A stretch of 64,000 nucleotides of DNA from Phycisphaerae bacterium (lineage in GTDB: Bacteria; Planctomycetota; Phycisphaerae; UBA1845; Fen-1342), in contig JAGNKU010000002.1 in NCBI GenBank assembly GCA_017999985.1, positions 186,001 to 250,000 on the forward strand, written 5' to 3'. A program made the position numbers and the translations under genes. Under the pieces are notes generated by a model. The model saw only the letters and a list, made by a program, of their open reading frames with translations. It did not search any database and was not told the origin of the DNA. Positions 50,671 to 55,462 of this stretch are shown one piece after another; within the stretch, counting starts at the first letter, position 1, and each line of letters opens with the position of its first letter.

Positions 50671-51471
50671 CTACGCGCCCGGCGGTGGCGGGCAAGTCTC
50701 ATCGGCGGTCCCCCAGTTCTGTCCACGCAGCTCCGGCCGCAGTGGCGCGCGACGCTGCATGCAATCCGGGTGTGTGCACGCCTCGCACGGGTAGCCATGC
50801 GGGCTGACCAGGTCCGCCGGGCCGATGCCGATCAGCCCGGAAATCGACTTCACGGGCACCATCAGGCAGCTCGGCGTGAGCTGCACGTTGATGGCCTGCG
50901 TCGGCAGGCTCGCGAACAGCGGCACCTGCTGGCACACCGTCATGCCGCAGTAGCCGGGGCTGTACGGCGGCGTGATGTCCATGCCGCGTGACCGGGCCCA
51001 GTGCCGCACTTCGTCGTTCAGTCGCTGCGCCGTCGCCTCCACGGCCTCCGACGCAATCGCATCCGCGATGGTCCCCGGCATGACTTTGCCCGCCCGCAGC
51101 CAGCCGCGACTGAGCCGCTCGACGCCCGAGCCGATCGTCACGACGAACGTGGCCATCAGGCGCGAGTGTGCCAGGAAGCTGCTGATGGCCCCGTCGAACA
51201 CCGCCCCCGACGCGAGCGTGATCCGCCGCGTTTGCAGCGACGCGACCTCGTCGATGCGAAACACGCCCCGCGGCCGCATGAGCCGCGGCAGGGTCGCCAG
51301 CAATTCATCGATCAAATCGAACCAGCGGCGGTGATTGTCGCGCCCCGGCTGGAGGTGCACCAGCCGCGCGATCTGCTCACGGTCCGGCTCGACACACGCG
51401 AAGCGCATGACACGCGGCGCCGCCACCGGCGTGGTGGAGTGCGATGCGGACGAACTTGCGGGGGCATCCAT
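50671..51471 (-). CDS. Stand-alone MetH-activation-like (vitamin B12-dependent methionine synthase activation) domain protein
   Basis: This 266-residue protein has SPGYCGMTVCQQVPLFASL and LTPSCLMVPVKSISGLIGIG. The latter matches the AdoMet-binding activation domain of MetH (LT-S-MMLPEKSVSGxIG). The tail has CEACTHPDCMQRR, a four-cysteine pattern not found in MetH. Such proteins, encoded beside corrinoid methyltransferases, are thought to reactivate the oxidised cobalt. It is divergent from a URO-D methyltransferase gene across 84 bp and near a B12-binding protein, which supports that role. The cysteines could carry an Fe-S cluster or zinc (inference). Confidence 0.82.
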   Translation of the reverse strand: MDAPASSSASHSTTPVAAPRVMRFACVEPDREQIARLVHLQPGRDNHRRWFDLIDELLATLPRLMRPRGVFRIDEVASLQTRRITLASGAVFDGAISSFLAHSRLMATFVVTIGSGVERLSRGWLRAGKVMPGTIADAIASEAVEATAQRLNDEVRHWARSRGMDITPPYSPGYCGMTVCQQVPLFASLPTQAINVQLTPSCLMVPVKSISGLIGIGPADLVSPHGYPCEACTHPDCMQRRAPLRPELRGQNWGTADETCPPPPGA

Positions 51472-51555
51472 GCAACCTGCTCCGTCGCCGGGGCACGGCC
51501 TGGGCCTGCCCGCGGGGTCGGTTGACCGGCTCGCGACCAGGCTGCATCATAACGC

Positions 51556-52701
51556 ATGGCCGGGGGCTACTTCGACCGTTCGATGCACGCCCCGGCGCGT
51601 CCGCGTGGCGGGTCGGCGGCGCGCGAGGAACGGACGGACGTGGAGCGTAGTTATTACCTGGAGCTGGCGGCACGGGGGCTCCGCATGCCCATCGGGGCCC
51701 ACCTCGTCCTGCACGAGCAGCCCGACCCCGACGCGATCATCGTGGACGGCGAACGCCTCGGCGCTGTCGTGGCGGCGACGGCCCGTCGGTACCGCACGCC
51801 GCTGGCCGTGCCATTGATGGACCTCACGGTTGAAAAAACCGCGCTGCTGGAGATGCTCGCGATCCCCGCCGACCAGATCGACAACTACCACTTCGCGAGT
51901 TGGAGCGGTCCCGAGGTGCTGGAGCGTCTGCAACAGGCGCTGCCGCGCCATCGCAACGCCCGCGTTAACGCGACCTGTGCTGCGATCACCCATGTCGCCC
52001 GGCAGACCGACCTGGTGCCCCTGGGGATGGTCATCGGCCCGCTTTCGCTGGTCGTGAAGCTGCTCGCCGATCCGATTACCGCGCTGTTCATGGCCGGTCG
52101 TGGGCGGACCGCAGCCGAGAACCCGCAGGTCGCCTTGCTCGAGGGCGTGTTCGAGCTGGCCACGCAGACCGTCCTGTGGTCCATCGAGAAGCAGCTCGAC
52201 GCGGGCGCCCAAGCGATCCTCATCTGCGAGCCCGCGGCCAGCACGGCGTACATCTCGCCGCGCCAGCTCGCCGCCGGCGCGAACCTGTTGGAGCGTTTCG
52301 TCCTTGCGCCGCACCGGCGAATCAAGGCCCGGCTCACGGCGGCCGGCTGCGACCTCATCTTCCACTGCTGCGGCGAGCTGACGGCCGATTTCGTGCGGAC
52401 CTTTGTGCAGCTCGATCCGGTCATGCTGAGCCTGGGCAGCTCGCGCGTGCTCTGGGAGGATGCCGCGCTGGTGCCGAAGAATATCGTGCTGTACGGCAAC
52501 CTGCCGACCCGGTCGTTCTATTCCGACGAGGCTTGCCCGCTGGCAGCGGTTGAAGCCCAGGCGGTGCGGCTGCTGCGCGAGATGTCCGCGATCGGGCACC
52601 CGTTCATCCTGGGTTCAGAGTGCGACGTGCTGAGCGTGCCGGGGGCACATGAGACGATTGCACGCAAGGTCGACGCGTTCATGAATGTGCCGTACCCATA
52701 G
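51556..52701 (+). CDS. URO-D family corrinoid methyltransferase
   Basis: This 381-residue protein of the uroporphyrinogen decarboxylase fold has PLAVPLMDLTVEKTALLEML and LGMVIGPLSLVVKLLADP. DAGAQAILICEPAAS, DLIFHCCGELTADFV and FILGSECDVLSVPG, with His, Cys and Cys in place for zinc as in MtaA/MtbA, come later. It should transfer a methyl group to or from a corrinoid protein. The true start may be later than ATG 51556, because the first 30 residues are low in homology and no good ribosome-binding site is seen. Confidence 0.85.
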   Translation: MAGGYFDRSMHAPARPRGGSAAREERTDVERSYYLELAARGLRMPIGAHLVLHEQPDPDAIIVDGERLGAVVAATARRYRTPLAVPLMDLTVEKTALLEMLAIPADQIDNYHFASWSGPEVLERLQQALPRHRNARVNATCAAITHVARQTDLVPLGMVIGPLSLVVKLLADPITALFMAGRGRTAAENPQVALLEGVFELATQTVLWSIEKQLDAGAQAILICEPAASTAYISPRQLAAGANLLERFVLAPHRRIKARLTAAGCDLIFHCCGELTADFVRTFVQLDPVMLSLGSSRVLWEDAALVPKNIVLYGNLPTRSFYSDEACPLAAVEAQAVRLLREMSAIGHPFILGSECDVLSVPGAHETIARKVDAFMNVPYP

Positions 52702-52717
52702 ACCACGCAGCGCGACC

Positions 52718-52746
52718 GCCCCCTGTTCCAGGGGAAGGGGCTGTGC
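52718..52746. repeat. Dispersed GC hairpin copy after the URO-D gene
   Basis: CCCCCTGTTCCAGGGGAAGGGG. CCCCTG-TTC-CAGGGG is a 6-bp stem. It is related to the 9173 unit. Confidence 0.45.
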
Positions 52747-52775
52747 TTCGCACGACCCGGCGGTTCTGTTATAGT
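52747..52775 (+). promoter_or_regulatory. Possible promoter of the corrinoid protein gene
   Basis: TTCGCA (52747-52752) and TATAGT (52770-52775) have a 17-nt spacer and lie 59 nt upstream of the ATG. Confidence 0.4.
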
Positions 52776-52834
52776 GGTTGGGCCGTGTAAGTTTGCCCGC
52801 GGACACCAACGGCCTGTCCGCCGTGGAGTATGTC

Positions 52835-53470
52835 ATGTCGCTTTTGGAGCAGATCGCACAAGCGGTCATCAACGGGGATGAGGTCCTCACGCCGAAGCTC
52901 GTGACGGACGCCGTCGCCGCCGGCACGCCCGCCGCCGACGTGCTCAACGTCGGCCTGCTGAAGGGCATGACCGAGGTCGGCCGGCTGTTCCGCGAGGGCG
53001 AGTACTTCGTGCCCGAGGTGCTGATCGCCGCCGAGGCCATGAAGGCCGGCACGTCGCTGTTGAAGCCGCACCTGGCAAAAGCCGGCGTCCGGCCGGAACG
53101 CACCGCGATCATCGGGACTGTGCGTGGCGACCTGCACGACATCGGCAAGAACCTGGTGGCGACGATGCTGGAAGGGGCTGGGTTCGAGGTCGTGGACCTG
53201 GGCGTGGACGTGCCGCCGGAGAAGTTCATCGCAGCCTGCCGCGAGCGCAAGGCGCACGTCGTCGCGCTCAGCGCCCTGCTGACGACGACGATGCCGATGA
53301 TGGAAACGTCGATCAAGCAGATGAAGGCCGAGCTCAACCCGATGCCGATCGTCCTGGTCGGCGGCGCCCCGCTGACGCAGGAATACGCCGACAAGATCGG
53401 CGCCGACGGTTACGGCCGCGACGCGGCGACCGGGGCGGAGCTGGCCAAGCAGCTCTGCAAGGCGCGCTGA
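52835..53470 (+). CDS. Corrinoid (B12-binding) methyl-carrier protein
   Basis: This 211-residue protein has the N-terminal helical cap of MtaC/MtbC-type proteins (AVINGDEVLTPKLVTDAV, FREGEYFVPEVLIAAEAMKAG). The cobalamin-binding Rossmann domain has the cobalt ligand histidine in RGDLHDIGKNLV and the SALLTTTMPMM and VLVGGAPLTQEYA motifs. It carries the methyl group between the URO-D proteins encoded on either side and an acceptor. ATG 52835 follows GGAGTATG. Confidence 0.95.
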   Translation: MSLLEQIAQAVINGDEVLTPKLVTDAVAAGTPAADVLNVGLLKGMTEVGRLFREGEYFVPEVLIAAEAMKAGTSLLKPHLAKAGVRPERTAIIGTVRGDLHDIGKNLVATMLEGAGFEVVDLGVDVPPEKFIAACRERKAHVVALSALLTTTMPMMETSIKQMKAELNPMPIVLVGGAPLTQEYADKIGADGYGRDAATGAELAKQLCKAR

Positions 53471-53532
53471 ACTGCACCGAGGCTGGGTCGAGTCAGGAGC
53501 CCAGCGATGGACGACGGGAGCGCAGGTCTGAG

Positions 53533-54249
53533 ATGACCTCGACGCCTGACGACACGAGTCAGTCTCCACCACTCGCGGCGTTGGACTCTGGCGCTTCTGA
53601 GTTGCCGAGAGCGCGCCGGTGGTTTGCGTCGCCTCCGCAGACACTACTCATCGTGTTCACGCTGCTGGTCGGCGCGTTGTACTTGGAGGGGCGCAGCCAA
53701 CCGTCCGGAATCAGTTTCTCGTCCCTTGTAGCGTGTGTGTTTCTCCCGGCGTCGGTCTGCGTTATGTGGCCATGCGGCGCGGCGCTGCTTGCGATTTACT
53801 TGCTCAAGATTCTCGGATGCTTCGCCAGGCGAACTTCCGCCTGGCACGACTGGCGCTGGTATGTGCTGCCTGCCGTTTTCGCCATCGTATTACACGCGGG
53901 ATACACACGCTGGCCGCTGATTGCGAGGTTCGAGCACAGCCGCACGGACTTCCAGCAGCAAGCCGCAGCTTTGCTGACCAGCCCTCCGGCCACTAATCCG
54001 AGCTTGCCGTCTGAGGCACAATCCCAGCCGCGCTTCGCGCTCCACGGATTCAGCCAGCGCGTTGGTCTGTACTACGTGTATAGTGTGGCAGTGTACCCCG
54101 ATCTTCAGTGCGTCTACTTTGTCGTCAACGATGGCAGCGTATTCGCCGGATTCCTGTATTCGCCCACAGGCGCGGAACCGAGGCCTTCGCACAAGCGCCC
54201 GCTCGGCGGTGGCTGGTTTACATTCCAGTATCCGCTCGGCTGGTCCTGA
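53533..54249 (+). CDS. Membrane protein of unknown function
   Basis: The family is not recognised. This 238-residue protein has a polar N-terminus, membrane helices at about 36-52, 65-95 (one or two) and 108-124, and an extracytoplasmic part (QRVGLYYVYSVAVYPDLQCVYFVVNDG). It lies between the corrinoid protein and second URO-D genes on the same strand. Its base composition is slightly less GC-rich than theirs. It may be an insertion into the methyltransferase cluster. Confidence 0.6.
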   Translation: MTSTPDDTSQSPPLAALDSGASELPRARRWFASPPQTLLIVFTLLVGALYLEGRSQPSGISFSSLVACVFLPASVCVMWPCGAALLAIYLLKILGCFARRTSAWHDWRWYVLPAVFAIVLHAGYTRWPLIARFEHSRTDFQQQAAALLTSPPATNPSLPSEAQSQPRFALHGFSQRVGLYYVYSVAVYPDLQCVYFVVNDGSVFAGFLYSPTGAEPRPSHKRPLGGGWFTFQYPLGWS

Positions 54250-54334
54250 ATGCGCAGTGAGGCCGCTGCGACGGCGTGCGTGCCTGTGACGTGTGACTGT
54301 GGTTAGATTGAGTTCTGTCGAGTCGAGAATCACC

Positions 54335-55462
54335 ATGCCCAGCTCGCTCAGCAGTAAGGAACGTGTCGCTCGTTGCCTGGCACGGCAGCCGCATGACCGC
54401 GTGCCGATGTTTGATTGGTACTGGGCCGAGGTCGAGGCTGCCTACGTTGCCGAGATCAACGATCCCAATCTCGGCTGCGGCATCCACGCCTTCGCCCGCG
54501 AGCCGCGCCCGGACCGCCTCTCGCTCTGGGAGTACTTCGATTTCGACCTCATGCAGGTCGCCTGGCCGGACCAGCGGCTGCGCATGGTCGAGCCGGAGGT
54601 CGTCGACCAGTCCGACGAATGGGTCCTCCTCCGCGACGGCAACGACGCCGTGCTGCGCTGGTGGAAGCACAAGATGGGCACGCCGGAGCACGTGTCCTTC
54701 GGCATCGATACGCCGGAGAAATGGGCGCGCGTCAAGCCGCTGCTCGCCGCGTCGCGCGACCGCATCCGCTGGCACGAGTTCTGGCCGCGGTACAAGCGTG
54801 CGAAGGAACGCGACAAGTTCATCTGCTTCGCCGGCGTGGAGATCATCGAATCGGTGAAAGACGTGCTCGGGCACGAGCGGATGCTCAAGGCCATGCTGAA
54901 GCAGCCCGACTGGCTCCGCGACGTCTTCGCGACCTACACGCAGTTCGAGATCGACATGCTCGCCCTGTGCGAGGCCGAGGGCATGGTCTGCGACGGGGCG
55001 TTCATCTACGGCGACATCGCCTACAAGAACGGGCCGTTCATGTCGCCGCGGCACTACCGCGAGTTCGTCTACCCGTGCCACAGGCGGCTGTTCGACGAGT
55101 TCCACCGGCGGAAGATGCCGGTGATTCTGCACTCGGACGGCGACATCCGGCTGCTGCTGCCACATTTCATCGACGCCGGCGTGGACATGATCAACCCCAT
55201 GGAGAGCCGCGCGGGGATGGATGTGCGCGAGCTGGCGCCACAGTTCGGCGATCGGCTCGGCTTCTGCGGGAACATCGATGTGACGGTGCTGGCGACGAAC
55301 GACCGCGCGCGGATTCTGGCGGAATTGCACAGCAAGATGGCGGCGGCGATGCAGTGCCGCGGGTACATGTACCACTCGGATCATTCGATTCCGCCGGGGG
55401 TGACGCTGGAGACGTACCGCTGGCTGCTGGAAGAGGTCAGGCGGGCGGGGACGTACGAGTGA
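54335..55462 (+). CDS. Second URO-D family methyltransferase-like protein
   Basis: This 375-residue URO-D-fold protein has RVPMFDWYWAEVEAAYV, ALCEAEGMVCDGAFIYGDIAY, SPRHYREFVYPCHRRLFDEFH, VILHSDGDIRLLL and GFCGNIDVTVLATND. It belongs to a URO-D branch different from the gene at 51556, lacking the HCCGE pattern. The substrate is unknown. Its place with the corrinoid protein suggests methyl transfer, not porphyrin synthesis. Confidence 0.82.
   Translation: MPSSLSSKERVARCLARQPHDRVPMFDWYWAEVEAAYVAEINDPNLGCGIHAFAREPRPDRLSLWEYFDFDLMQVAWPDQRLRMVEPEVVDQSDEWVLLRDGNDAVLRWWKHKMGTPEHVSFGIDTPEKWARVKPLLAASRDRIRWHEFWPRYKRAKERDKFICFAGVEIIESVKDVLGHERMLKAMLKQPDWLRDVFATYTQFEIDMLALCEAEGMVCDGAFIYGDIAYKNGPFMSPRHYREFVYPCHRRLFDEFHRRKMPVILHSDGDIRLLLPHFIDAGVDMINPMESRAGMDVRELAPQFGDRLGFCGNIDVTVLATNDRARILAELHSKMAAAMQCRGYMYHSDHSIPPGVTLETYRWLLEEVRRAGTYE

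Follow-up and report, generated by a model that had tools for sequence, protein, structure and literature searches.

A corrinoid methyltransferase cluster with a stand-alone MetH-activation-like protein in a Phycisphaerae bacterium: a putative RACo-free methyl-transfer hub

Results and Discussion

Gene content of the locus

The locus described here lies in a stretch of 64,000 nucleotides (the window) from the Phycisphaerae bacterium assembly GCA_017999985.1, contig JAGNKU010000002.1, positions 186,001 to 250,000; the host genome comprises 5.23 Mb in 31 contigs and is 98.65% complete. Four genes within 5 kb encode Act, a stand-alone protein similar to the activation domain of methionine synthase MetH; UroD1 and UroD2, two unlike proteins of the uroporphyrinogen decarboxylase (URO-D) family; and CorP, a corrinoid carrier (Table 1). 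The first-pass annotation had proposed a corrinoid methyltransferase cluster that carries a dedicated protein of MetH-activation type with a CxxC...C tail; this was confirmed, tail included. With a probability of about 0.6, we propose that the four genes constitute a corrinoid methyl-transfer hub with Act as its MetH-type, RACo-free reactivator.

Table 1. Features of the cluster (window coordinates)
Feature	Positions	Strand	Basis
Act: stand-alone MetH-activation-domain-like protein, 266 amino acids, putative corrinoid reactivator	50671..51471	-	PF02965, 1j6r, AlphaFold2 fold
Divergent intergenic region Act/UroD1, 84 bp	51472..51555		
UroD1: MtaA-like URO-D methyltransferase, His-Cys-Cys zinc triad	51556..52701	+	PF01208, profile, alignment
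CorP: corrinoid (methyl-B12) carrier, 211 amino acids from ATG 52835	52835..53470	+	PF02607+PF02310, DLHDIG, 1y80
Open reading frame separating CorP from UroD2, probable bystander	53533..54249	+	no Pfam/NCBIfam match
UroD2: URO-D methyltransferase-like, His-Asp-His at zinc-site columns	54335..55462	+	PF01208, triad, AlphaFold2 fold

All four genes lie at the positions first assigned to them and read as genuine coding sequences, with GC contents at the three codon positions of 0.67/0.55/0.88 (Act), 0.71/0.47/0.86 (UroD1), 0.68/0.43/0.91 (CorP) and 0.63/0.41/0.89 (UroD2). The full open reading frames (ORFs) of CorP and UroD2 open further upstream, at TTG 52778 (52778-53470) and GTG 54293 (54293-55462), respectively; comparison with relatives indicates that the true starts are probably ATG 52835 and ATG 54335. 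The ORF between CorP and UroD2 has an unusual codon make-up, with a third-position GC of 0.72 compared with 0.86-0.91 for the adjoining genes.

Act and its cysteine tail

Act matches PF02965 with 34.3 bits (cut-off 25), the match covering only profile positions 122-247 of 273, and finds the PDB structure 1j6r with E-values of 1.8e-5 in a single-sequence search and 1.6e-22 in a profile search. The AlphaFold2 model of Act (mean predicted local distance difference test score, pLDDT, of 87) has as its best fold match the same structure, Thermotoga TM0269 (Z 20.7, root-mean-square deviation 2.3, 192 residues), while MetH activation domains score Z 17.4-19.4 and unrelated structures at most 7.0. Judged by this model, Act has the MetH reactivation fold. 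Glu1097 and Arg1134 of Escherichia coli MetH are residues of S-adenosylmethionine (AdoMet) binding and reactivation. In the alignment, Glu1097 corresponds to E145 of Act and Tyr1139 to Y174, both of which are kept, and Tyr1139 has been reported as important for reactivation (PMC10567725). The C-terminal tail of Act, C229-x2-C232-x4-C237 (CxxCx4C), is present in neither reference of this alignment, MetH or TM0269.

CorP and the two URO-D proteins

CorP possesses both B12 domains (PF02607, B12-binding_2, and PF02310, B12-binding) and the corrinoid motif DLHDIG (DxHxxG), and its best PDB match is 1y80 (E 4.7e-54). It thereby has the defining features of small methyl-corrinoid carriers of the MtaC/MtgC/1y80 type; its matches to the named NCBIfam corrinoid subfamilies are all below their cut-offs.

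UroD1 and UroD2 match PF01208 with 51.1 and 76.6 bits, respectively. A profile built from UroD1 relatives has its best PDB match in 4ay7 (E 1.5e-35, compared with 9.4e-30 for HemE), the methylcobalamin:coenzyme M methyltransferase MtaA of thiol type. UroD1 keeps the His-x-Cys...Cys zinc triad of MtaA, and its residues H270, C272 and C356 are invariant in all 10 aligned proteins. The UroD2 profile matches both HemE and MtaA, and its AlphaFold2 model (pLDDT 87.8) has the URO-D fold; in the columns of the MtaA zinc triad UroD2 carries His-Asp-His instead of His-Cys-Cys. By alignment, the two proteins thus differ in their predicted zinc-site type. According to Kountz and Balskus (PMC10418091), His-Cys-Cys goes with methyltransferases acting on sulphur or selenium, and a carboxylate substitution with O-methyltransferases. 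Applied by analogy, this zinc rule suggests that UroD2 takes an O-methyl compound as donor and that UroD1 acts on a thiol or selenol.

Misannotated HemE proteins were considered as well and rejected on the scores of the HemE family TIGR01464 (cut-off 302.95): UroD2 reaches 29 bits and UroD1 gives no match at E<=0.001, as had been anticipated for this cluster. The MtaA/CmuA family TIGR01463 (cut-off 235.4) is not reached either (UroD1 24.5 bits, UroD2 32.8 bits). In a URO-D tree, UroD1 forms a clade with its counterparts in loci L084 and L117 (support 100/100), and UroD2 with those in L084, L086 and L088 (100/100); the tree and the triad table were built from ORFs of at least 250 amino acids, and the tree was used for near groupings only because of its long branches and weak deep forks.

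Genomic neighborhoods of Act relatives

Relatives of Act were found at 308 loci in a search across 84,980 species genomes, and the 80 best were used for analysis of neighborhoods, in which genes no further than 4 kb from Act were identified by local profiles. A CorP gene occurs in 61 of these 80 loci, against an expectation of ~0.2% for one CorP gene per 5 Mb; several of the other 19 end at a contig border (with room for 627 bases in L082 and 297 in L083). URO-D genes are found in 48 of the 80, homocysteine methyltransferase (HMT) genes in 28, and MtaB and pterin methyltransferase genes in 11 each; 60 of the 61 CorP-bearing loci contain a methyltransferase gene of at least one of these four types. 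The pattern that retrieved the 80 loci fixes [RP][YL]SPGYCG[WM], and conservation inside it is therefore not evidence; the CxxCx4C tail is kept in 80/80. Viral contigs scanned with Act gave a single pattern match and no relative.

A phylum sample that was not chosen by motif contains 19 Act loci. CorP is located within 4 kb in 5 of the 6 with a PG[YL]CG motif versus 1 of the 13 without it (L112 of one set and L046 of the other look like one genome, with identical URO-D, so that the sets overlap there). The CxxCx4C tail is kept in 14 of these 19 loci and missing from the other 5; in 8/19 it occurs without PGYCG, so tail and motif are not strictly coupled, and a four-Cys cluster requiring the SPGYCG cysteine was rejected as a candidate. 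Relatives of UroD1 are confined to 1 of 294 in the phylum sample, the host genome itself.

Locus L084, from an uncultured Phycisphaerae bacterium, has counterparts of all four genes (identity of 64% for Act, 70% for UroD1, 80% for CorP and 83% for UroD2), which shows that the cluster is no chance assembly. The ORF at 53533-54249 is missing between CorP and UroD2 in L084 and has no match among the 80 best loci. UroD2 lies directly downstream of CorP in L084, L086 and L088 (83/61/71% identity). L086 and L088 contain CorP, UroD2, MtaB and Act; L087 contains MtaB and Act along with a URO-D that is a relative of UroD2 (31%). An MtaB-like gene, present in L084 in addition to the four-gene set, adjoins Act on its upstream side in L084, L086, L087 and L088, and the two of these genes that were tested score 472-489 bits against PF12176. 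The planctomycete setting pointed out earlier is retained, relatives of the cluster belonging to Phycisphaerae/Planctomycetota.

Activators and partner genes in the host genome

The first-pass annotation had proposed reactivation by something other than a RamA-type protein, in agreement with the finding that the RACo-type activator family PF14574 has no match in the host genome (a Methanosarcina control was positive). RACo/RamA is also missing from all 80 best Act loci, and a RACo survey of genomes from 50 of them (L112 and 29 others lay outside it) did not find it in 39.

Elsewhere, the host genome encodes MetH at full length, activation domain included, and Act is thus not needed to complete it. 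That Act only services this MetH, its position in the cluster being incidental, would agree with its fold and with the presence of a client; we regard this explanation as very improbable, as MetH already holds such a domain and Act stands beside CorP in most of its best loci.

The only pterin-binding proteins of the host genome are MetH and one of FolP size, named FolP by size and score; folate as the acceptor via a second pterin methyltransferase was rejected, as none is encoded. MCH of the tetrahydromethanopterin (H4MPT) route was not found in the host genome, hence we see no link there to the planctomycete H4MPT question. MtaB (PF12176) likewise has no match in this genome, by which methanol use via MtaB is ruled out for the host. 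The cluster could instead be the remnant of an MtaABC-like methanol system that lost MtaB, in line with the MtaB-like genes upstream of Act in its four relatives; such decay appears quite unlikely, given that the remaining genes are intact with a strong coding signature, that UroD1 retains its catalytic triad and that relatives with URO-Ds but without MtaB are common.

Eight URO-D proteins are encoded in the host genome, none exceeding the HemE cut-off (best 87 bits). The strongest URO-D Pfam match, G000:C3:251207-252178 (L074:8184-9188), is MtaA/CmuA-like with 151 bits (below the cut-off of 235), has a His-Cys-Cys triad and adjoins a GH38 gene. Another paralogue, on contig C5 (L066:4740-9184), has Tyr-Glu-Ala at the zinc columns, is related to a URO-D that in other genomes is flanked by CorP and Act, and is located next to RnfC and RnfD-like genes, which might supply low-potential electrons. 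In loci L067 and L074 of the host, URO-D paralogues have rhamnosidase-like, GH95-like and GH38 genes as neighbors, a hint at demethylation of methylated glycans.

Removal of O-methyl groups from methylated glycans might then also be the function of the cluster itself. In L085 and L089, CorP and Act are accompanied by a rhamnosidase or GH38 gene, and a gene of L048 resembles GH38 by eye. The link is weak, however: rhamnosidase matches occur in 4 and GH38 matches in 2 of the 80 best loci, and no such gene flanks the cluster in the window except one that we take, from its sequence, to be a glycogen phosphorylase. Glycoside hydrolases are common in planctomycetes, and we consider this function unlikely.

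Proposed methyl-transfer pathway

The hub proposed here has as its computed basis the gene content, the folds, the zinc triads, the conserved proximity of Act to CorP and methyltransferase genes, and the lack of RACo, of MtaB and of any second pterin methyltransferase; the direction of transfer, the classes of donor and acceptor, the action of Act on CorP and the electron source are what we infer. CorP would carry the methyl group on its B12 cofactor. UroD2, with its His-Asp-His site, would most likely load CorP from an O-methyl compound, and the MtaA-like UroD1, with its His-Cys-Cys site, would move the methyl group between methyl-CorP and a thiol or selenol. Once the cob(I)alamin of CorP has been oxidized, Act could dock on CorP in the manner of the MetH activation domain on its B12 domain, supporting reduction of CorP and possibly its remethylation from AdoMet, and would thereby stand in for the RACo/RamA ATPase of known systems. 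The final acceptor is plausibly homocysteine, via an HMT encoded elsewhere in the host genome.

Several observations weigh against this scheme. Act reads away from UroD1, CorP, the intervening ORF and UroD2, all on the plus strand, across the 84-bp gap, and the four genes therefore do not form a single operon. The arginine of the RxxxGY motif (E. coli MetH Arg1134) is replaced by P169 in Act, which makes AdoMet binding doubtful; of the AdoMet-type domain predicted at first, the fold, the glutamate and the tyrosine are retained and the arginine is not. The fold of UroD2 fails to separate HemE (Z 29.0) from MtaA (Z 26.6). The chloromethane URO-D CdmB is described in PMC13222342 as active without zinc, and zinc triads therefore do not prove a substrate. 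RACo is encoded somewhere in 11 of the 50 surveyed Act genomes, and one cluster (L053:1141-10102) combines two MttB genes, two CorP genes, RACo, a pterin methyltransferase and an Act-like protein without PGYCG, so that Act may do something besides replacing RACo.

The strongest specific rival to the hub, or an extension of it, concerns the homocysteine acceptor. CorP and Act could be pieces of a split MetH that forms methionine independently of folate, the methyl group passing from a URO-D donor to homocysteine via a separate HMT. HMT genes are frequent within 4 kb of Act, loci L047-L050 combine CorP, HMT and Act with a URO-D or MttB gene, and the host genome, which has no second pterin methyltransferase, encodes three stand-alone HMT-like proteins outside the cluster, one of which (C3:121192) groups with Act-linked HMTs (support 91/85) although its end branch is long (1.05). 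There is also a precedent for a stand-alone protein of this kind reactivating a MetH, TM0269/TM0268 (Huang 2007, cited in PMC7857596). On the other hand, the host has its full-length MetH with an activation domain, the cluster contains no HMT, and an HMT co-occurs with a His-Cys-Cys-type URO-D in 11 of the 61 CorP-bearing loci, which indicates that UroD1 is not simply an HMT substitute. We hold this explanation to be possible but doubtful.

As for other donors suggested at the outset, methylamines and betaine-like compounds are not favored, no MttB-type gene being found in the cluster (MttB was not searched genome-wide); methoxylated aromatics are possible, though nothing specific points to them.

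A bolder version of the hub, which we offer tentatively and at well under even odds, would make Act the founder of a second, RACo-independent class of corrinoid activases. The CxxCx4C tail, in this clade together with the SPGYCG cysteine beside the cobalamin-facing tyrosine, would bind an iron-sulphur or other metal center that feeds electrons to B12, and Act would serve a modular network of URO-D, MtaB, MttB, HMT and pterin partners across Planctomycetota, Bacteroidota, Ignavibacteriota, Verrucomicrobiota, Chloroflexota and Acidobacteriota.

Comparison with known systems

The cluster works like MtaA/MtaC-type systems but falls outside the mlp cluster, MtaABC and Mto/Odm families, as the defining features that were tested fail. 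Type 1 mlp clusters, as described by Kountz and Balskus (PMC10418091), similarly have several MtaA-type URO-Ds, one small corrinoid protein, an activator and no folate methyltransferase. Their activator, however, is Ram/RACo and not Act, their genes are co-directional, and their Mlps have His-Cys-Cys triads (except several Mlps1), at least two such Mlps being characteristic, whereas here only UroD1 is of this type. The MtaABC methanol system shares an MtaC-like carrier and an MtaA-like protein, as well as the MtaB seen in close relatives of the cluster; the host differs by having neither MtaB nor RamA and by its extra UroD2. The Mto/Odm/Vdm/Cdm O-demethylase and dehalogenase systems also combine a URO-D-fold methyltransferase I with a small corrinoid protein, but their activating enzyme is ATP-dependent and their methyltransferase II is of the pterin type (as described in PMC8630106 and PMC13222342); both are missing here.

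TM0269, with TM0268, is alike in being a stand-alone activation-domain protein and the nearest solved fold to Act; it differs in serving methionine synthase, in having no CxxCx4C tail and in keeping the arginine. In the split MetH of Phaeobacter (Price 2018, PMC5764234), methyl carrier and reactivator are likewise on separate proteins, but the reactivator is RamA-like and no PF02965 protein is involved; the HMT and pterin-binding partners of a split MetH were both not found in the cluster.

The closest published statements, in the same paper, concern the possible occurrence of PF02965 as a protein of its own and the reactivation of B12 by RamA-like proteins of bacteria. The characterized non-MetH corrinoid methyltransferase systems named in the cited papers use an ATP-driven RACo/RamA activator. 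In the literature searched, we found no description of Act-type activators in clusters of this kind. The one-carbon system was initially called unusual; it is better seen as one instance of a widespread variant that lacks description in that literature, the Act/CorP/methyltransferase arrangement recurring in many poorly studied bacteria. If the proposed role of Act is correct, a stand-alone MetH-type reactivator goes with modules for methanol, URO-D, MttB and homocysteine across many uncultured phyla, which would explain how organisms without RACo run corrinoid methyl-transfer chemistry. PGYCG together with CxxCx4C would then provide a search handle for methyl metabolism that is now annotated as "uroporphyrinogen decarboxylase" or "methionine synthase activation domain".

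Related arrangements in other genomes

Two genomes of the same phylum contain MttB-Act-CorP-HMT clusters (L049:327-4077 and L050:8318-12050), which are candidates for making methionine without folate, a quaternary or tertiary amine being the methyl donor. In 11 loci of Bacteroidota (L107, L113, L126, L129, L134, L138, L139, L147, L148, L149 and L155), CorP, a pterin methyltransferase and Act are encoded close by one another, and these loci look like split MetH sets.

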